Positions 3,046 through 60,927 of a stretch of 64,000 nucleotides of DNA are shown here, piece after piece. Source of the stretch: Niabella sp. GTDB taxonomy: Bacteria > Bacteroidota > Bacteroidia > Chitinophagales > Chitinophagaceae. Within the stretch, counting starts at the first letter, position 1. The number at the start of each line of letters is the position of its first letter. The stretch covers positions 100,097-164,096 of the forward strand of contig JAPUDO010000087.1 in assembly GCA_027493055.1 (NCBI GenBank), given 5' to 3'. The translations under genes and the position numbers were made by a program. The notes under the pieces are model-generated. The model saw only the letters and a list, made by a program, of their open reading frames with translations. It made no database searches and had not been told where the DNA came from.

Positions 3046-3199
3046 GCTGAGCCCCTTGCCGGAGACTCAGCTACGAAATAATTAACCGGTTGTTTATTAT
3101 CTCACGCAGGTCTGACGTTGAGCCACGAGCACTGGCTGACCTGTGTGGCAGCGTTACTAATCCACCTTATTACGCCGAGTCCCTTGCAGGAGGGTCGGC
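3046..3199. repeat. Pair of related palindromes flanking a third hairpin
   Basis: The 200-bp gap between two convergent genes holds three possible hairpins. The outer two are direct copies of one palindrome: 3046-3071 (arms GCTGAG/CTCAGC) and 3174-3199 (arms GCCGA/TCGGC). They share the centre CCCTTGC, and the arms differ by matched changes that keep pairing. The middle one, 3102-3146, has outer arms CAGGTC/GACCTG and inner arms GCCA/TGGC. The pattern resembles a REP/BIME element at the 3' ends of convergent genes; it could also act as a transcription stop. Confidence 0.55.
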
Positions 3200-5410: not shown

Positions 5411-5438
5411 ACTCGCCATTCACTATTCACTACTCACC
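5411..5438. repeat. Heptanucleotide tandem array, trpB 3' end
   Basis: Four consecutive 7-bp units of consensus ATTCACT (ACTCGCC, ATTCACT twice, ACTCACC) begin about ten bases beyond the trpB stop codon. A weaker 7-bp rhythm (GYTACCG-like) is visible at about 5247-5274 just before trpA. Confidence 0.65.
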
Positions 5439-7214: not shown

Positions 7215-8291
7215 ATGAAATGGATACGTTGGGGAGTATTGCTGGTATTAGCTATTGGTATTAAAATATTATCACTCAGCCCCGCCTGGGTAGAGGAATA
7301 TTATACATATGGCATATATCCGCTTATTACAATAGTGCTAAGGCGCCTGTTGGGCTGGCTGCCTTTCAGCGCGGGAGATATACTTTATACGGTTGCTATT
7401 GTATGGGCCATTTACAAAATAGTTACAGTAATAAAACATGCTAAGGCGCAGAAATACTCCCGTTTGTACATGCTGCGTGCCACCAGGAGAGCAGGCTTTA
7501 TATTGCTGGTTCTGTATGTGCTGTTTTATAGTTTATGGGGGTTGAATTATTCAAGGAAAGGTATAGCAAGCCAGCTGGGACTTAAAGAACAACAGTACTC
7601 CGTCAACGATCTGGACACATTGGTATATTTGTTAAGAAACCGTGTAAATGAGCATGCCCCGCTGCTTACACCTGCAATAAGAGATTCTTTTCAAACTAAA
7701 AAGAACCTGTTTTCAAATGCGGCATTATTGTATAAAATAGCAGCAGCAAAGTATCCTTTCCTGGATTACAAGGGCTATTCGGTAAAACCTTCCCTGTTCA
7801 GCTACCTGGGTAATTATATGGGCTTCCAGGGATATTATAATCCTTTTACAGGCGAAGCACAGGTAAATACCACCATACCGCCCTGTGTAGAACCTTTTGT
7901 AGCCTCTCATGAAATAGCCCACCAGCTGGGCTATGCCAAAGAAAGTGAAGCCAATTTTGTAGGATTCCTGGCGTGCAGGTTACATCCTTCCGTAAATTTC
8001 AGGTATTCTGTTTATTTCGATATGTATCATTATGCTATCCGAGAACTGGCTTATGTGGACTCAGTAAAGGCTGAGGCTTACGACAGCACATTGCATATAC
8101 AGGTAAAAAAGGATAAGGCAGATTATACTGCTTTTTACAGGAAATACCGGAACCCCATAGAGCCTTATATTGATAAATTTTATGGTTATTTTTTAAAAGC
8201 CAATAACCAGCCTAAAGGCAAGCAGTCCTACAATGATGTAGTGATCTGGCTGATCGCTTATTATAAAAAATACGGGAAGGAAGCTATTTGA
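7215..8291 (+). CDS. DUF3810 family membrane protein with HExxH motif
   Basis: This 358-residue protein has three predicted membrane segments in its first 120 residues, then a soluble part. ASHEIAHQLGYAKESEANF (HEIAH at about residue 232, a Glu eleven residues on) is a zinc metallopeptidase-type HExxH...E motif. I recognise the whole as DUF3810, a family largely confined to Bacteroidota with unknown substrate. In-frame starts exist at 7149 (TTG) and 7197; the promoter box at 7184-7191 and the hydrophobic N-terminus MKWIRWGVLLVLAIG favour 7215. It is followed by rpsA on the same strand, which has its own promoter. Confidence 0.82.
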   Translation: MKWIRWGVLLVLAIGIKILSLSPAWVEEYYTYGIYPLITIVLRRLLGWLPFSAGDILYTVAIVWAIYKIVTVIKHAKAQKYSRLYMLRATRRAGFILLVLYVLFYSLWGLNYSRKGIASQLGLKEQQYSVNDLDTLVYLLRNRVNEHAPLLTPAIRDSFQTKKNLFSNAALLYKIAAAKYPFLDYKGYSVKPSLFSYLGNYMGFQGYYNPFTGEAQVNTTIPPCVEPFVASHEIAHQLGYAKESEANFVGFLACRLHPSVNFRYSVYFDMYHYAIRELAYVDSVKAEAYDSTLHIQVKKDKADYTAFYRKYRNPIEPYIDKFYGYFLKANNQPKGKQSYNDVVIWLIAYYKKYGKEAI

Positions 8292-8340: not shown

Positions 8341-8361
8341 AATCAGAGATCAGAAATCAGG
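8341..8361. repeat. Short heptanucleotide array before rpsA promoter
   Basis: Three 7-bp units (AATCAGA, GATCAGA, AATCAGG) sit immediately upstream of the rpsA -7 box. They occupy the place where a -33 element would be expected. Confidence 0.5.
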
Positions 8362-8371
8362 AATTAATTCG

Positions 8372-10745: not shown

Positions 10746-11201
10746 TCATCGCTTAAGCAACCGCTCATCCACTCTTAATGTTCTTGAATAAAGGACGTTT
10801 ACTTTGTTAAAATGCGGATGTGCAGGATTTAATAACACGTTATACTCTTCAGGCATCACCGCCGATGGCACTTTCAATGCCAGGTGCTTTTTATTTTTAA
10901 TGAACAGGTCTCCTGTTTGTTTTATACTGTCAGGAGCAGGATTCATAAACCAGTTGTCCGGAAGCTGCTCTATTGAAATCCCTGTAATGCTGTCATCGGG
11001 TATTTCCAGGCAAACCATACAAAGAGTAAGCTGAACCATAGTGGTGATATGCACTACACTTTCCAGCATAGCCAGTGACGGCGATTGTGCAGTATAAAGA
11101 ATGAACGTTCCTTTATGATGCCATCGGCCCGGATACAGCGACGCACCCCTTCCGCTAAGGTCATCAATAAATTTACATTTGCTGATCCTGTAAACTTTCA
11201 T
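10746..11201 (-). CDS. RES domain toxin
   Basis: The 151-residue protein is the toxin of a RES/Xre type II toxin-antitoxin pair. RES toxins are ADP-ribosyltransferase-fold enzymes that deplete NAD+. The family signature residues are visible: an Arg in MKVYRISK, the GRGASLYPGRWH segment, Glu in LAMLESVVH, and the Ser in KVPSAVMPEEYNVLLNPAHP. A longer frame starts at 11246, but its first 15 codons are made of tandem repeat DNA, so I start at MKVYRISK. It lies downstream of the antitoxin gene, in the usual order for this family. Confidence 0.88.
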   Translation of the reverse strand: MKVYRISKCKFIDDLSGRGASLYPGRWHHKGTFILYTAQSPSLAMLESVVHITTMVQLTLCMVCLEIPDDSITGISIEQLPDNWFMNPAPDSIKQTGDLFIKNKKHLALKVPSAVMPEEYNVLLNPAHPHFNKVNVLYSRTLRVDERLLKR

Positions 11202-11210
11202 TGGGTCAAT

Positions 11211-11374
11211 GGTGAGTGATGAGTGATCAGAGAAGCAAAAAATCAAAATCGGGTTTCAATATCCAGGTTTCAGGTTCTACACCAGTTGCTGGATTCTGGA
11301 TGCTAGATACTGGCTTCGCGCTTCCGGTGTAATCTCTGGTCTTCGGACTTCTGACCTCTGACTTCCGACTTTCT
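11211..11374. repeat. Heptanucleotide arrays filling the RES-Xre gap
   Basis: Almost the whole gap between the two genes is 7-bp tandem repeat with at least four different units: GATGAGT (11211-11231), GGTTTCA (11252-11279), TRCTGGA (11287-11314) and ACTTCYG (11333-11374). The last array runs into the antitoxin stop codon at 11373-11375. Confidence 0.75.
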
Positions 11375-11885
11375 ACGCAAAAATTCCATGCTCTATACGG
11401 CCAAGTTCTTCAATAAGCAGAGCAATACCCATGGAAGTATCTAAAAAGCTCTTTGGTTTTTTATTGCCCAATGCACCTACGGGCGACTCCATCCATAATT
11501 TAAACGACTCCATATCTTCAAAAACATCAGCGCCTCTTGCATACAGGCGTGCCAGCTCTAACACCCGCTCCGACTGTTCCGGATTAAGTTTTTGCGAAGA
11601 GGTATAGCGGCGTAATGTTCTGTCCGAAATATGAAGAACCGCGGATAGCTCAGCATCTGATAATGCCATTACTTCAGCAAGATGGTTCAGCGCCTTCTTA
11701 GGTATTCCTTCACGGATGTAACTGATAAAATCTGTAACGCTTTCAATGCCGTAGTTATAAATTCCTAAAAGCGCCAAAGGGCCGGTTATATTTTTATTGG
11801 AAATATTATAAGCTACTGCGGCTTCCTCCACAGTAGAAAGCTCTTCTTCTGCAAAATGATCGTATGTAGTTTTACGGCTTTTCAT
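11373..11885 (-). CDS. Xre/ParS (MbcA-type, DUF2384) antitoxin
   Basis: The 170-residue antitoxin has an N-terminal helix-turn-helix-like part (ALSDAELSAVLHISDRTLRRY is the recognisable segment) and a C-terminal toxin-binding DUF2384 region (ARLYARGADVFEDMESFKLWMESPVGALGNKKPKSFLDT, with the family's 'W...P...LG...P...L' spacing). It neutralises the RES toxin and represses the operon. I start at MKSRKTTYDHF, thirteen bases after the predicted start point; the longer frame from 11924 would run through the promoter. Confidence 0.88.
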   Translation of the reverse strand: MKSRKTTYDHFAEEELSTVEEAAVAYNISNKNITGPLALLGIYNYGIESVTDFISYIREGIPKKALNHLAEVMALSDAELSAVLHISDRTLRRYTSSQKLNPEQSERVLELARLYARGADVFEDMESFKLWMESPVGALGNKKPKSFLDTSMGIALLIEELGRIEHGIFA

Positions 11886-11894
11886 ATTTCGCTT

Positions 11895-11910
11895 ATTTGT
11901 CCCAAATATA
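11895..11910 (-). promoter_or_regulatory. Promoter -7 box and overlapping palindrome of the RES/Xre operon
   Basis: TATATTTG (complement of 11903-11910) is a consensus -7 box. ATTTG-TCC-CAAAT (11895-11907) is a perfect inverted repeat that overlaps it, where antitoxin binding would block transcription. A second ATTTGTC copy lies at 11916-11922. Confidence 0.55.
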
Positions 11911-11962
11911 CGGCCATTTGTCAATAATTAAAAATTTTTGTCCTGATTTCCCGGGAATAAAA

Positions 11963-15521: not shown

Positions 15522-15564
15522 CAAATTAAAATATAACTTAATATTAAATTTAGTATGAGCTATC

Positions 15565-15629
15565 AGTAGTGAATAGTGAGTAGTTTGGATACCTACGCAC
15601 AACTAACCATTTACTATTCACTAATACAT
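15565..15629. repeat. Heptanucleotide arrays after the M42 gene
   Basis: Two short arrays: AGTAGTG-type (15565-15585) and ATTYACT-type (15602-15629). The second ends four bases from the M42 stop codon. Confidence 0.65.
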
Positions 15630-16813: not shown

Positions 16814-17001
16814 AAAAGTCGGAAAGTCAGGGAGTCCGAGGTCCGAAAGCAGGACACAACAAGTAACCAGTAACCTGTATTCAGTATCCAACAACCAGCA
16901 TAATATAAAATGTACGATGTTTGGTGTACGATGTATGACATGAAAGCGGATAGCGAAAGGCTGAAAGCCAGAAGCTAAAGGCCGAAGACTAAAAGCAGAA
17001 C
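16814..17001. repeat. Block of four different heptanucleotide arrays
   Basis: Within the 490-bp gap between the M42 and DUF6515 genes there are AAGTCNG-type units (16814-16848), AGTAACC-type (16862-16896), TGTACGA-type (16911-16938) and eight in-phase GCYRAAR-type units (16946-17001). No gene is seen in the gap. Confidence 0.8.
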
Positions 17002-17050
17002 ACCGTTTACTACGATTGAATTTAATTACTGCCTAACTAACAACGCCTGT

Positions 17051-17109
17051 GTATAGAATATCCGAACACTCAATATTCAATGCCCAGCAATGAATGCTCA
17101 ATGAAAGTT
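17051..17109. repeat. Dispersed repeat copy plus heptad array
   Basis: 17051-17082 matches 60777-60808 at about 28 of 32 positions (shared core TATAGAATATCCG, then TCAATATTC). From 17068 the sequence continues in 7-bp units of ATTCAAT type to 17109. A last short array (GACTCCT, GACTTCC) is at 17160-17180. Confidence 0.65.
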
Positions 17110-17244
17110 TCCAGCAACCTTAAAACAAATAAACTTTAAGACACCATCTTCGGCCCCGGGACTCCTGACTTCCCAACTTTTTTAACACTCCTTACGCATC
17201 GTTTTTACAAAATGAAGCGTCCTACCTGTAAAAAATAGCATAAA

Positions 17245-27152: not shown

Positions 27153-27216
27153 ATTTCTGATTTATAATTTCTGATTTGAGATTAAATTTCAAATCATTAA
27201 ATCTCAAATTATAAAT
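27153..27216 (-). repeat. gltB-gltD intercistronic hairpin built from heptads
   Basis: Five 7-bp units of ATTTCTG type (27153-27187) form one side; the far side contains the complement, so ATTTATAA (27160-27167) pairs with TTATAAAT (27209-27216) and TTTGAGATT (27175-27183) with AATCTCAAA (27200-27208). A stem of about 17 pairs with a bulge results, in the gap between the two subunits' genes. It could set their expression ratio. Confidence 0.55.
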
Positions 27217-27220
27217 TGTT

Positions 27221-30200
27221 TTAAGCTATTTGTTTTTGTGCCACTTTAGCCTGCATAATTTTTTTGTATTCGCTTGGATATACTTTTACAAAATTCTTAA
27301 GCTGGTTTTCGAAATCGTCTAAAACGAACCGGGCTACGGTACTATCGGTATATTGATAATGCTTTTCTATTTGTTGTTGCAGGAAAGCTGCGTCTTCTGC
27401 ATCCACAGGATCCAGCTCAACCATTTCCATATTACAGTTACCGGCAAACTTTTGAGCAGCATCATAAATGTATGCAATACCACCGCTCATGCCTGCAGCA
27501 AAATTACGGCCGGTAGGACCAAGTATGATAGCGCGCCCGCCGGTCATATATTCACAACCATGGTCGCCCACACCTTCTACAATCATGGTAGCGCCGGAGT
27601 TACGTACGGCAAACCTTTCACCGGCTTTACCACGGATATAAGCCTCGCCGCTTGTTGCACCATAGAAAGCTACGTTACCTATAAGACTGTTTTCTTCAGG
27701 AACAAAACCTGCATTTTTATCCGGATAGATAATCAGCCTGGCGCCGCTTAATCCCTTGCCAAAATAATCATTGGCATCTCCTTCAAGTTCCAGCGTAATC
27801 CCCTTGTTACAGAAAGCGCCAAAACTTTGACCGGCAGTGCCTTTTAACTGGATGTGAATGGTATCTTCTGGCAGGCCTGCATCCCTGTATTTTTTGGTAA
27901 GCTCATGAGATAAAATAGTACCCGCTGCGCGATCTGTATTTACGATATCAAATGAGGCTTTTACCGGCGTACCATTTTCCAGGGCCGGCTTAGCTGCTTC
28001 AATGAACTTCCAGTCGATAATATCATCTAAACCATGATCCTGCGCTTCATAGTGGTAAATACCTACTCCTTCCTCTGCTGGTTCTTTATAAAGAACAGGA
28101 GAAAGATCTAACCCTTTATACTTCCAGTGATCAACGCCCTCTCTTATTTTCAGTTCATCTACCTGACCTACCATTTCATTAACCGTTCTGAAACCCAGTT
28201 CGGCCATCAGTTCACGCATTTCCTGTGTGATGAATTTGAAGAAATTTACCACATGATCTGCGTTACCACTAAAGCGTTTTCTTAATTCAGGGTCCTGTGT
28301 AGCCACGCCTACAGGGCAGGTATTCAGGTGGCATTTACGCATCATGATACAACCTTCTACTACAAGTGCTGCGGTAGCAATACCCCACTCTTCGGCGCCT
28401 AATAACGTGGCAATCACAATATCACGGCCTGAACGCATCTGTCCATCAGTTTGTAAAACCACACGGCTGCGTAATTTATTTTTTACAAGGGTTTGCTGCG
28501 CTTCTGCAACGCCCAACTCCCAGGGTAAACCTGCATGGCGAATGGAACTTAGCGGCGATGCACCTGTGCCACCATCATGGCCGGCAATCAGTACTACATC
28601 AGCTTTTGCTTTTGTAACACCTGCGGCAATGGTACCCACTCCCGCCTTACTCACCAGCTTCACATTAATACGTGCATGGCGGTTAGCATGTTTGAGATCG
28701 AATATCAATTGTGCCAGATCCTCAATAGAATAAATATCGTGGTGAGGAGGCGGAGAGATCAGCCCTACACCCGGAGTAGAGTGCCTTGTACGGCCGATCC
28801 AGTCATCTACTTTATGGCCGGGAAGCTGCCCACCCTCCCCGGGCTTTGCTCCTTGTGCCATTTTTATCTGCAGCTCATCCGCTTCTGTTAAATATAAACT
28901 GGTAACGCCAAAACGTCCGCTGGCCACCTGCTTGATAGCACTGCGCATACTATCGCCATTTTCCAATGGGGTATAGCGTGCTTCATCTTCACCACCTTCA
29001 CCGGTATTACTTTTACCACCCAGGCGGTTCATTGCAATAGCCAGGGTAGTATGCGCTTCCCAGCTGATGGAACCAAAGCTCATAGCGCCGGTAGCAAATC
29101 TTTTATAAATATTTTCTGCCGGTTCTACTTCATCAATAGAAATAGAAGGGCGGCTGCGTTTAAAGTCGAACAGGCTGCGGATGGTGATTGCCTTTTGACC
29201 CTGTTCATCAATCAGCTTCGTGTATTTTTTAAAGGTGTTGTAATCCCCCATCCTTGTTGAATACTGCAATAAATGAATGGTTTGCGGATTAAACATGTGC
29301 GCTTCTCCTTTACGCTTCCATTGATAGAACCCTCCGGTGGGTAACAGGTCCACAGGCAGTTGCTTGCGTGTAAAGCTGAAATGATGCTTTGCCAGCGCCT
29401 CCCGGGCAATTTCGTCAAGGCCCATACCCTCAATACGGGAGGTAGCATTGGTGAAGTAATTATTCACTACCTCTTTATTAAGACCAATAATTTCAAAAAT
29501 CTGGGCACCCTGGTAAGACTGAAGCGTGGAGATACCCATTTTGGAGAAAACCTTCAGCAATCCGTCACTTACTGCTTTGATATAATTTTTATGCAGTTCA
29601 TCTACTGATTTATCAGACTTTATTTTACCTGTTTCTTTTAACAGTTTAATAGTTGAGAAAGCGAGGTAAGGATTAATTGCCGTAGCGCCAAAGCCCAGCA
29701 GACATGCAAAATGATGTACTTCCCATACATCTCCGGCCTCTACAACAATACCCACTTTACCACGCAAGCCTTTTCTTGTTAAGTGGTGATGCACAGCAGA
29801 CACGGCCAGCAAAGAGGGAATAGCAGCGTGATCGCCATCAATGGCCCTGTCCTGCAATACCAGTACTTCAAAGCCGTCGTTCACGGCATCCTCTGCATAA
29901 CGGCAGAGCCTGTCCAGCGCGCGGCGCATGGAGCCAGGTTTTCCATCAGCTACAAAATAACACTGTATCGTTTTAGCCTGGAAGCTGCCGGTATCAATAC
30001 TTCTCAGCGTTTCCAATTCGTAATTGGTAAGCACCGGCTGTTTTAGTGCTACAACGTGGCAGTCTTTTTCATCTTCTATTAATAAGCTGCCATTGTTCCC
30101 TACAAAGGTAGCCAATGACATTACCATTCTTTCCCTGATAGGATCAATAGGCGGGTTAGTTACCTGTGCAAATAACTGCTTGAAATAGTAACTTAAATGC

Positions 30201-31735
30201 TGCGGCTGATCGCTCAAAACAGCAAGTGGTGTATCCACACCCATAGATCCGATAGGCTCTTTACCATCGGTAGCCATAGGCGTAATAAGGTTCTCTACAT
30301 CTTCTGATGTATAGCCAAACGCTTTCTGGTATTTGAAGATCTGGTCTGCTCCCAGGTCGCTGAACATTACACGGGGTTCAGGCAGCTCATTTAAGCGTAT
30401 TTTATATTGGTTTAACCAATCTCCATAAGGTTTTTTTGAACAGATGTCCTGCTTTAGCTCCTCATCACTAATAATACGGCCCTGCTCCATATCTACCAGG
30501 AACATTTTACCCGGCTGCAGCCTTCCTTTTTCTTTGATGATACTCTGGTCAATAGGTAAAGCGCCGGTTTCGGAACCCATGATTACACGACCATCTGTAG
30601 TAACGCAATAGCGTGAAGGGCGGAGGCCGTTTCTGTCTAAAGTAGCCCCGATTATTTTTCCATCGGTAAATGAAATGGAAGCCGGACCATCCCAGGGTTC
30701 CATTAAACAGGCATGGAACTCATAGAACGCTTTTTTAACAGGATCCATTTCTTCATTACCATCCCAGGCTTCAGGGATCAACATCATCATTACATGTGGC
30801 AGCGGACGGCCTGTTAAAGCCAGCAGCTCTACCATATTATCCAGGCAGGCTGAGTCACTCTGGTCATTGCTTACAATAGGAACCAGCATGTCCATTTCTT
30901 CTTCTGTGAACAATGGCGATTCAAAGCTGGATTCGGCAGAACGCAGCCAGTTCAGGTTTCCCTGCAAGGTATTGATCTCACCATTATGCGCTATGAAACG
31001 GAATGGCTGGGCCAATCTCCATGAAGGAAAGGTATTAGTAGCAAATCTTGAATGCACCAAACCAAATGCACTTACGGCACGTTTATCAGAAAGATCGTTA
31101 TAATATTCACGCACCTGGTGGCTGGTTAACTGGCCTTTATATATCAAAGTACGGCAGGACAGTGAAGAAATATAAAACCCTACAGCGTCCTTCTTTACGG
31201 CATTGCCGGTTATGTGTGTAGCATATTTTCGTAAAACAAAAAGTTTTCTTTCAAACTCGATGGCTGTTTCCACGCCGGCAGGACGCTCAATGAAAACCTG
31301 TTCAACAGCTGGTTCTACGCTCAATGCACTGGGGCCAATACCTGAATTAGTGACAGGCACTTTACGCCAGTGGATAACACGCATCCCCATTTTTTCTGCT
31401 GCGCGATTAAAGATCTCGCGGCACTCTTCCCGCACCCTCAATTCCATTGGGAAGAAAACCATCCCAACGGCATATGCTTCAATGGCAGGAAGCGTGATGC
31501 CCAAATGAAGTAATTCATCATAAAAAAACTCATGAGGAATCTGGATCATAATTCCTGCGCCATCACCAGTATTGGCTTCGCATCCGCAGGCTCCCCTGTG
31601 CTCCATGTTCTCAAGAATAGTGAGCGCGTCTGAAATGGTCTGATGGTTTTTGTTGCCTTTAATATTGGCAACGAAACCAATTCCACACGCATCACGCTCA
31701 AAAGATGGGTCATAAAGACCTTTGTTTTCTGTCAT
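27221..31735 (-). CDS. gltB: Glutamate synthase [NADPH] large subunit
   Basis: The 1504-residue subunit makes two glutamates from glutamine and 2-oxoglutarate. The amidotransferase nucleophile Cys17 follows a short propeptide (ERDACGIGF). The FMN-binding synthase barrel contains GEGGEDEARY and HDGGTGASPLSS, the 3Fe-4S ligands are in CIMMRKCHLNTCPVGVA, and a Gly-rich C-terminal beta-helix (GGRAIILG) ends the protein. All hallmarks of the complete enzyme are present. It is first of gltB-gltD; the gap to ilvA upstream (31736-31957) is A/T-rich with only weak promoter-like sites. Confidence 0.97.
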   Translation of the reverse strand: MTENKGLYDPSFERDACGIGFVANIKGNKNHQTISDALTILENMEHRGACGCEANTGDGAGIMIQIPHEFFYDELLHLGITLPAIEAYAVGMVFFPMELRVREECREIFNRAAEKMGMRVIHWRKVPVTNSGIGPSALSVEPAVEQVFIERPAGVETAIEFERKLFVLRKYATHITGNAVKKDAVGFYISSLSCRTLIYKGQLTSHQVREYYNDLSDKRAVSAFGLVHSRFATNTFPSWRLAQPFRFIAHNGEINTLQGNLNWLRSAESSFESPLFTEEEMDMLVPIVSNDQSDSACLDNMVELLALTGRPLPHVMMMLIPEAWDGNEEMDPVKKAFYEFHACLMEPWDGPASISFTDGKIIGATLDRNGLRPSRYCVTTDGRVIMGSETGALPIDQSIIKEKGRLQPGKMFLVDMEQGRIISDEELKQDICSKKPYGDWLNQYKIRLNELPEPRVMFSDLGADQIFKYQKAFGYTSEDVENLITPMATDGKEPIGSMGVDTPLAVLSDQPQHLSYYFKQLFAQVTNPPIDPIRERMVMSLATFVGNNGSLLIEDEKDCHVVALKQPVLTNYELETLRSIDTGSFQAKTIQCYFVADGKPGSMRRALDRLCRYAEDAVNDGFEVLVLQDRAIDGDHAAIPSLLAVSAVHHHLTRKGLRGKVGIVVEAGDVWEVHHFACLLGFGATAINPYLAFSTIKLLKETGKIKSDKSVDELHKNYIKAVSDGLLKVFSKMGISTLQSYQGAQIFEIIGLNKEVVNNYFTNATSRIEGMGLDEIAREALAKHHFSFTRKQLPVDLLPTGGFYQWKRKGEAHMFNPQTIHLLQYSTRMGDYNTFKKYTKLIDEQGQKAITIRSLFDFKRSRPSISIDEVEPAENIYKRFATGAMSFGSISWEAHTTLAIAMNRLGGKSNTGEGGEDEARYTPLENGDSMRSAIKQVASGRFGVTSLYLTEADELQIKMAQGAKPGEGGQLPGHKVDDWIGRTRHSTPGVGLISPPPHHDIYSIEDLAQLIFDLKHANRHARINVKLVSKAGVGTIAAGVTKAKADVVLIAGHDGGTGASPLSSIRHAGLPWELGVAEAQQTLVKNKLRSRVVLQTDGQMRSGRDIVIATLLGAEEWGIATAALVVEGCIMMRKCHLNTCPVGVATQDPELRKRFSGNADHVVNFFKFITQEMRELMAELGFRTVNEMVGQVDELKIREGVDHWKYKGLDLSPVLYKEPAEEGVGIYHYEAQDHGLDDIIDWKFIEAAKPALENGTPVKASFDIVNTDRAAGTILSHELTKKYRDAGLPEDTIHIQLKGTAGQSFGAFCNKGITLELEGDANDYFGKGLSGARLIIYPDKNAGFVPEENSLIGNVAFYGATSGEAYIRGKAGERFAVRNSGATMIVEGVGDHGCEYMTGGRAIILGPTGRNFAAGMSGGIAYIYDAAQKFAGNCNMEMVELDPVDAEDAAFLQQQIEKHYQYTDSTVARFVLDDFENQLKNFVKVYPSEYKKIMQAKVAQKQIA

Positions 31736-41889: not shown

Positions 41890-41940
41890 TGTTTATTCGT
41901 GTTTTTAATTTTTGATTTTTTGTTGTAAGGATTTATTTTA

Positions 41941-43032: not shown

Positions 43033-43088
43033 GTGAGTGATCAGTAATGAGTAATCAGTAATGAGTGATGAGTGATCAGTAATTAGCA
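43033..43088. repeat. Heptanucleotide array, eight units, at the four-helix-bundle gene 3' end
   Basis: Seven near-perfect units of RTSAGTR type (for example ATCAGTA, ATGAGTG) and one diverged unit. The array covers the stop codon (43076-43078) and the last codons of the four-helix-bundle gene and reaches to 23 bases from the ilvN start. Confidence 0.8.
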
Positions 43089-43502: not shown

Positions 43503-43530
43503 ATGACTCATCATTCATCACTCACTATTT
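43503..43530. repeat. Heptanucleotide array at the ilvB 3' end
   Basis: ATGACTC, ATCATTC, ATCACTC, ACTATTT in one phase. The ilvB stop codon (43525-43527) is inside the last unit. Read on the other strand, the units are the same words as the array at 43033-43088, so the two arrays are inverted relative to each other. Confidence 0.7.
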
Positions 43531-47681: not shown

Positions 47682-47735
47682 AAAAAATAGTTATTCGAGT
47701 TTCCTTATAGTTTAATCTTCTAAATAATTTTTAAT

Positions 47736-47763
47736 AATCAATAGTCAATGCTTAATAGTTAAG
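47736..47763. repeat. Heptanucleotide array between leuA and ilvD
   Basis: Four units of ARTCAAT type (AATCAAT, AGTCAAT, GCTTAAT, AGTTAAG) in one phase. Confidence 0.55.
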
Positions 47764-47866
47764 CGTAAAAAAGAAGCTACCTTTTATTTATTATTTCCCC
47801 GGCAGTGTTTATATTTCCTGATACAATTAGCCTTTTTGTCTTACACATTTGTCTGAAGCATATTGA

Positions 47867-60574: not shown

Positions 60575-60610
60575 CTTTAATTTTTAAGTGCCGGTCAATT
60601 TACCGGGATG

Positions 60611-60618
60611 CAAATGTA
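60611..60618 (-). promoter_or_regulatory. -7 promoter box for tex
   Basis: TACATTTG on the minus strand, predicted start near 60605 and leader of about 30 bases. Confidence 0.6.
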
Positions 60619-60670
60619 ACAGCCTGTAAAAAACAAAAAAATATTTTTTGAAAGCAGTTTTCCCCATATT

Positions 60671-60917
60671 GGTTACAGGTTCCTGATTTCAGGTTCCAGA
60701 TTCCAGGTTCAAAGTTTCAGGATTTAAACTCACTTTACCCCGATTGAAAATTAGTTATTGAATATTTCATGCCTTTGTATAGAATATCCGTACATTCAAT
60801 ATTCTATGTTCAACAATTAAAGCTCAGTTCCAAGTTTCAGGTTCCAGGTTTCAGGATGTGTTATTCAAGACATTAGATCTTAGTACTTAGACTGTAACCA
60901 GTAATCTGTATCCAGCA
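60671..60917. repeat. Three long heptanucleotide arrays
   Basis: Three arrays with a strict 7-bp period: GRTTYCA type (60671-60726, eight units), ATTCAAT-to-TTCAGGT type (60794-60856, nine units) and GACTGTA/GATCTTA type (60869-60917, seven units). Copy 2 of the 17051 dispersed word is at 60777-60808. The last array ends ten bases from the stop codon of the 2Fe-2S reductase gene. No gene lies in this 353-bp gap. Confidence 0.85.
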
Positions 60918-60927
60918 TCGAAATAAC

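Follow-up and report, generated by a model that had tools for sequence, protein, structure and literature searches.

Degenerate seven-base tandem arrays with shared and drifting words in the intergenic DNA of a Niabella genome

Why should gap after gap of one bacterial chromosome keep a seven-base repeat period while the letters that are repeated change from place to place? The question arises at positions 60671-60917 of a stretch of 64,000 nucleotides from a Niabella sp. contig, which we call the window. A first-pass annotation had suggested that about ten gaps carry 7-bp arrays, each with its own unit, and had attributed them to one copying process rather than one spreading sequence. In our view, at a probability of roughly 60%, the arrays are old, degenerate tandems of 7-bp words in gaps, shaped by turnover of units within an array together with spread between places.

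Segments were scored at lag 7 (match +1, mismatch -1), and each gene was taken simply as the longest ORF, which leaves the gap edges approximate. The intergenic DNA of the window (39 gaps, 7,580 bp) shows autocorrelation maxima at 7, 14, 21 and 28. It contains 14 period-7 segments at a score of at least 10, one of which (41902-41920, TTTTTAA) is low-complexity. Among the other periods from 4 to 12, score 10 in the same gaps gave at most 4 segments (period 11), with 2 at period 4, 2 at period 10 and 0 at both 6 and 8, and 100 dinucleotide shuffles gave a period-7 mean of 0.23 with a maximum of 3. Of the ten places that the annotation lists, nine reach this score, and the tenth (43503-43524) is marginal with a score of 9. 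One of them, 11211-11374, holds up in part: two arrays lie in the gap (11289-11324 and 11333-11376), whereas the segment at 11204-11233 lies inside an ORF (10746-11246). The arrays are as follows, with the strand where one was assigned:

5413-5437, heptad array TCACTAT (score 12)
8342-8364, heptad array ATCAGAA (score 12)
11289-11324, heptad array CTGGATT (score 13)
11333-11376, heptad array ACTTCTG (score 18 when clipped to the gap, 19 unclipped)
15554-15584, heptad array AGTGAAT (score 10)
16858-16987, plus strand, 130-bp array of about 18 units in a 7-bp frame, running from AACCAGT through TGTACGA to AAAGCTG (segments with a score of at least 10 at 16858-16900 and 16902-16938)
27153-27217, heptad array ATTTCTG passing into a part with inverted-repeat character, as judged by eye, near a stop codon (score 14)
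43036-43086, heptad array AGTAATG, the top score of the window (23 when clipped to the gap, 28 unclipped)
43503-43524, marginal heptad array ACTCATC (score 9; TRF score 31)
47725-47769, heptad array TAATAGT (score 14)
60671-60716, heptad array GGTTCCA / GATTTCA of about 6.5 units (score 17 at lag 7; TRF 60671-60721)
60826-60855, heptad array AGTTTCA / GGTTCCA (score 15)
60868-60919, single 7-bp frame running from AGACATT-type to AACCAGT-type words (score 11)

The array at 27153-27217 stops 3 bp from the end of a minus-strand ORF (27221-31735). At 10746-11924 a gene with a RES domain adjoins a gene for an antitoxin of the Xre/MbcA/ParS type (Pfam); the intergenic gap of this pair carries two heptad arrays.

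From a genome of 5.75 Mb the sample comprised 824 kb and some small pieces, the 824 kb being divided into set 1 (464 kb, including the window) and a separate set 2 (360 kb). At score 11 the 824 kb hold 94 period-7 arrays against a mean of 0.85 in 20 shuffles. Set 1 contributes 58 arrays at period 7, 6 at period 8 and 0 at period 6, and set 2 contributes 36, 7 and 0, respectively; at score 10 set 1 has 70 at period 7 and at most 9 at every other period from 2 to 13. Scanning 150 kb of E. coli K-12 yielded 0 period-7 arrays. The observation is real and specific to the period, and it withstands both refuting conditions that the annotation had set: the excess is present in the sampled genome DNA beyond the window, and neither six nor eight equals seven, here or among the relatives described below. 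Period 8 accounts for thirteen segments in the 824 kb, of which some are built on words such as GAAAAGTT and AAGTCCGA. These 8-bp arrays stand on a few words (L007 5325, L016 4617, L365 5162 and ten more) and exceed periods 6 or 9 in their own genome.

As in long simple sequence repeats (LSSR) and short tandem repeats (STRR), tandem 7-bp units occur above chance and mostly outside genes, the gaps (85 kb) containing 94 arrays at score 11 and the coding DNA (593 kb) 5 at score 12. This near-confinement probably arises because a change in unit number within a gene shifts the frame. Arrays make up 5.5% of intergenic bases at the threshold used. Their share is 0.047 in convergent, 0.066 in minus-minus, 0.044 in divergent and 0.052 in plus-plus gaps, differences too small to speak for a preference for one of the four types. 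Coding periodicity was discarded as a source, since seven is no multiple of three and, over the first 300 ORFs, the autocorrelation of coding DNA has no peak at lag 7 (0.2694, 0.2530 and 0.2492 at lags 6, 7 and 8, respectively).

For the relatives we scanned 40 of the 58 listed, each in a single stretch of 18-20 kb placed by coordinate on known contigs. For the one protein searched, the nearest relatives share 71-74% identity. The Tex protein points to Bacteroidota, its five best plasmid hits (57-60% identity) belonging to Bacteroidales genera and the following ones reaching 49% or less. Pooled, they contain 52 arrays at period 7, 10 at period 8, 8 at period 9 and 1 at period 6, and one shuffle per relative gave 2 at period 7 over all 40. 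At least one period-7 array is present in 21 of the 40, and none in the sampled stretch of the other 19, so the excess extends to the relatives, where the annotation had proposed to look for it.

A scan of named genomes for TGTACGA arrays gave at least 118 stretches; 80 are listed (L190-L227 were set aside), and of these 79 were grouped, all but L158. These genomes are selected for bearing one heptad word, and binning errors are possible. The matches listed include Chitinophagaceae, Bacteroidales, Saprospiraceae, Flavobacterium and Arsenicibacter (which we take to belong to the Cytophagales), and also Akkermansia and records labelled as other phyla, mostly MAGs. The match and about 200 bp around it were masked before periods were counted. 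Among the loci listed, period 7 then reached 29 in Chitinophagaceae/Saprospiraceae (other periods at most 3), 19 in Akkermansia (at most 1), 17 in the other phyla (at most 2) and 10 in four Flavobacteriales/Cytophagales loci (at most 1). With the match masked, periods 7 and 8 are equal at 6 in a Bacteroidales MAG from Kiruna and equal at 1 in the C13 MAG; the other Bacteroidales loci listed give 2. The Kiruna MAG supplies 13 of the 80 listed loci, and its near-perfect GATGTAC arrays have at least 10 units in the three loci displayed (L113, L131, L170). It is possible that they represent a young stage of the same process.

That each array has its own unit fails at genome scale. An alignment to an array in another gap, at a score of at least 18, was found for 38 of 70 arrays, against 2.6 of 70 for column-permuted copies, a control that alters the dinucleotides too. 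Exact heptamer classes are slightly more widespread than in the column-permuted null, the top ten occupying 9, 9, 9, 8, 7, 7, 7, 7, 7 and 6 gaps against 9, 7, 6, 6, 6, 6, 5, 5, 5 and 4 in one null draw. The doubled word AGTAACC (AGTAACCAGTAACC) occurs at 31 places with at most 1 mismatch, its reversed pattern at 1, and AATGTACGATGTACGATG at 31 places of its own genome with at most 2 mismatches, its reversed form at 0. The arrays draw on a genome-wide vocabulary.

Some of the words also keep a fixed order. In the 824 kb, which were unselected by word, TGTACGA is followed by AAAGCTG, with order and orientation constant, in 9 of 9 adjacencies (the dispersed core described below is not involved in 5), AACCAGT by TGTACGA in 6 of 7 and AGTCCGA by AACCAGT in 4 of 4, with words picked post hoc from the data and up to 3 mismatches allowed in 13-14 bases. 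Reversed words used as a control gave one adjacency of the TGTACGA/AAAGCTG pair and one other. Counted singly at that laxity, two of the words do not clearly exceed their reversed forms: TGTACGA occurs 21 times and its reversed form 18, AGTCCGA 14 times and its reversed form 17. AACCAGT with GAACCTG has no constant order in the 824 kb (3, 3 and 3 over three arrangements). A larger count of 16/16 takes in small loci fetched via the core or a word and is biased.

A vocabulary common to the whole order was considered and dropped, with sharing of 0.08 in 26 unselected stretches of other genera against controls of 0.08 and 0.00. Word sharing with the window genome exceeds both controls in three genomes (G003, G007 and G016). 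Seven further stretches of the same genus, pooled, gave 0.25 against 0.17 and 0.25, which is not above both. The high sharing of G037 stems from stretches that had been selected for a word; G025 and G055, selected in the same way, are only moderately above the reversed control.

The type array at 60671-60917 surrounds a dispersed element, of which the window contains two copies:

60743-60828, plus strand, part of the dispersed element with the core GTATAGAATATCCGTACA at 60777
about 16988-17110, plus strand, second copy with the core at 17051

Counting the gap at 60575-60927 itself, its sequence has 24 matches in the genome (40 of 96 candidates scored), 19 over the core region, four of which form one tandem cluster, and 5 over the flanking heptads only. 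The core GTATAGAATATCCGAACA sits between ATTGAAT-type heptads and, on the other side, their complement CAATATTCAATG. AACCAGT, TGTACGA and AAAGCTG words stand ahead of it in several copies (e.g. L059, L063, L065, L066). Many copies of one core can be aligned within the genome, as in a dispersed family (12 of them in alignment A1), and one copy of the element found matches in 13 of 58 relatives' genomes, mostly short and on the ATTGAAT-type parts. At one locus (L060, at 221, 368 and 515; G000 C68 50000-51100) three cores lie exactly 147 bp, or 21 heptads, apart, a larger tandem repeat made of heptad multiples, and a fourth core follows 185 bp further on, over a stretch reading N. A G+C-rich inverted-repeat element beginning CCCCGCCTGTCCGGACG follows a CAATAAT-type heptad beside the core at three loci (L006 about 100-148, L068 about 426-470, L007 about 3120-3170), where it looks as if it had been inserted.

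Taken together, the shared vocabulary, the fixed order of words and the dispersed element argue that copying between places contributes. The denial of a spreading sequence is not supported, with units recurring genome-wide, TGTACGA preceding AAAGCTG in all 9 adjacencies of the 824 kb and the type array itself lying around a dispersed element. The earlier view, in which every gap has grown its array by itself, a chance seed being extended by local slippage and nothing being copied from elsewhere, is already weakened by the same facts: words recur in the genome beyond column-permuted and reversed controls, some in fixed order and some around the dispersed core. On its side stand the frequent difference in words between adjacent arrays, the different arrays detected at one orthologous gap in different species and, in stretches unselected by word, a sharing between genera that is near the controls. 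As the whole explanation we consider it unlikely.

An individual array appears to gain and lose whole heptads while its words drift and the frame persists. Measured in the 34 arrays that are 49 bp or longer, excess identity is 0.53, 0.41, 0.31, 0.18 and 0.12 for units one to five units apart. A simulation of duplication, loss and point mutation (5 unit events per unit per substitution per site), fitted by eye to arrays selected for high lag-7 identity, gave 0.59, 0.41, 0.30, 0.23 and 0.18. In one array (L360) about 22 units remain in one frame with their content wholly changed. With an excess of 0.53 between neighbours and 0.12 at five units, the units of these longer arrays are not near-perfect, as by our reading LSSR usage has them, and hence the arrays are a variant of LSSR or STRR and not members in the strict sense.

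Turnover is also seen between G007 and G016, two sister species of the window's genus that are 86% identical over the 6.4 kb compared. Among 48 orthologous gaps compared, 12 have arrays in either species and 9 in both. Identity is 0.806 in arrays against 0.893 outside arrays in the same gaps and 0.863 in array-free gaps. Among alignment gaps of 4 nt or longer, 9 of 27 in arrays and 18 of 146 outside have a length divisible by 7 (Fisher p 0.017), a result that is supporting and not decisive, since it comprises only 27 gaps and the aligner prefers 7-nt gaps in 7-periodic DNA. In the same gap of the two species unit numbers differ, and in places the words do too. One convergent gap, recognised across eight species by gene order and length, has arrays in four of them, with GGTTCCA in G009, TTCACTA in G010, GATACTC in G007 and AATGCTC in G016. 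Three species have no array there, and the gap of G015, only 34 bp long, lay outside the scan. G007 and G016 are not wholly different at this gap, because AATGC-type heptads are common to its left part.

Arrays in gaps common to G007 and G016 can be followed in L253, L343, L344, L350 and L351 against L328, L329, L334, L335, L345 and L347. One of these loci (L253, at 1618-1706 and 7235-7343) contains two dispersed repeats, each about 80-110 bp long, for which G016 has roughly ten and eighteen matches, respectively; the repeat at 1618-1706 is present in a gap of G007 and missing from that of G016. The two species would be a good natural test system.

What mechanism might account for these properties? 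In the reading that we prefer, whole heptads would be duplicated and lost within an array by replication slippage or unequal recombination; with point mutations accumulating at the same time, the word would drift along the array and the 7-bp frame would be kept. The duplicating step is probably slippage. Neighbouring units that match at only about half their positions should slip inefficiently, so such events must fall while the units are fresh. Between places, arrays would spread as pieces or as blocks of several words, including the dispersed element with the core GTATAGAATATCCGAACA, so that distant gaps come to hold a common vocabulary with some words in one order. The blocks may move by recombination or by mobilisation, and the arrays would be mostly neutral. 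A minority of arrays would form hairpin stems, some directly after a stop codon. The annotation's one copying process thus survives in part: the more frequent multiples of 7 among alignment gaps in arrays and the decay along them fit slippage with mutation, while copying between places contributes as well.

If hairpins were the general answer, the arrays would be arms of long stems that follow genes at their 3' side, acting as terminators or stabilising the RNA, and pairing would keep the arms in step. In favour of this is a genome of a neighbouring genus (G025), where an inverted partner lies in the same gap for 10 of 30 arrays, in line with a stable inverted repeat after the stop codon; six of them lie 0-4 bp from a stop codon. 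In one gap of G007 and G016 both hairpin arms seem, by eye and in this single case, to differ in words yet to stay complementary. The two genomes show no excess of inverted partners. Array gaps of the relatives' set fold with a median z of -2.92 (60 of 62 tested) against -0.76 in array-free gaps, in a set that was partly chosen by word. In the window genome the inverted scores of 79 arrays are slightly higher in their own gap than in other gaps (median 11.0 against 9.1, p 5e-8; a smaller sample of 33 arrays gave p 0.13), but only 10 of the 79 have a convincing partner. Folding there resembles that of the controls (z of -0.49 in 25 array gaps against -0.39), with -1.44 and 0.19 in the two main gaps of the window. 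The partner count and the folding rule out hairpins as a general answer for the window genome, where stable inverted repeats after stop codons are not the pattern, and leave them a minority; as an explanation of the arrays we rate the idea as quite unlikely. Known structured RNA was dismissed as well, 0 Rfam families reaching the gathering score within the window.

One might also imagine the same slow writer at work in many bacterial lineages, a replication-linked copying with an intrinsic seven-base step that continually rewrites gaps. Place and step would then be kept while words are replaced, giving intergenic DNA a seven-base texture independent of the letters, and we find this doubtful. 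An error-prone activity dedicated to copying in steps of 7 nt, by which arrays are written and rewritten, would agree with period 7 being the commonest in the 40 pooled relatives and in several groups of other taxa, and with up to about 22 units of drifting content in one frame (L360). However, ordinary slippage and mutation yield similar drift in simulation, and the word families that keep 8 bp (the 13 segments of the 824 kb) suggest that pitch may be inherited along with the word, which weakens any universal 7-nt step of a polymerase. We regard such an activity as very improbable. Equally far-fetched is a binding platform whose protein reads a base or two in every 7 bp, so that the pitch is selected and the letters are free: 21 bp is about two helical turns, some arrays hold certain positions constant while others vary (GATGTAC, GATTTAC, GATATAC), and 12 of 40 arrays vary unevenly between columns at p<0.05 (sum 469 against 272 expected), which could mean selection and would equally follow from shared ancestry of units, but detected arrays at one orthologous gap differ or are missing between species, and 19 of 40 relatives have no array in the single stretch sampled.

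If turnover within arrays and spread between places are indeed the explanation, a visible part of intergenic DNA would be the residue of heptad-sized copying and dispersal, neither a selected signal nor random. Such residue could mislead motif finders, RNA predictors and measures of intergenic conservation. The preference of bacterial repeats for seven bases is an old question, and through the sister pair G007 and G016 it becomes testable.

How do the arrays compare with known systems? The heptanucleotide STRR of cyanobacteria also place several different heptamers in tandem, and their words are few and well kept. Three STRR heptamers are cited for Calothrix in PMC4692102. That heptamers are common has been described before: according to PMC4679880, heptanucleotides are the commonest repeat class in most genomes of one survey, and the idea of a 7-nt polymerase contact as the cause is credited to Mrazek et al. 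2007. A later survey calls repeats of 4-11 nt units normal or weakly over-represented (PMC4060949). The annotation had supposed that nothing equivalent exists for this phylum, which is contradicted by the heptamer arrays of five Bacteroidetes mentioned in PMC4679880. Titles and abstract openings of the openly licensed papers listed gave no description of degenerate, word-drifting heptad arrays in Bacteroidota; heptamer repeats themselves being known, it is the degenerate, phase-keeping and word-changing form that looks new, a form that is unusually prone to spread and quick to change.

The long simple sequence repeats of 5-11 nt (Mrazek et al. 2007, as cited in PMC4679880 and PMC4692102) resemble our arrays in that heptanucleotides are the most abundant. 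They are described there as runs longer than chance, whereas the arrays of the window genome are mostly short or strongly degenerate and would hence be missed by counts of perfect runs. The TAACTGA heptamers of Beggiatoaceae, cyanobacteria and five Bacteroidetes (MacGregor 2015, PMC4679880) are likewise intergenic 7-bp tandems, with other heptamers beside some arrays and with arrays sometimes missing from the equivalent gap of close relatives. That system has a single dominant word, found mostly before start codons in its main species, while the window genome has many words and no strong site preference. GGGAATC-type repeats of Xanthomonas and Nostoc (Rehm 2015, PMC4692102) share the 7-bp unit, the enrichment in non-coding DNA and probably the variable number of units; their word is G-rich, with quadruplex potential and a preference for four units, whereas the words of the window are mostly not G-rich. 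Finally, Geobacter metallireducens has dispersed elements made of tandem heptamers, one family numbering 49 (PMC2700814), and in this they are like the element described here; that family differs in lying inside genes too and in consisting of four units of one word.
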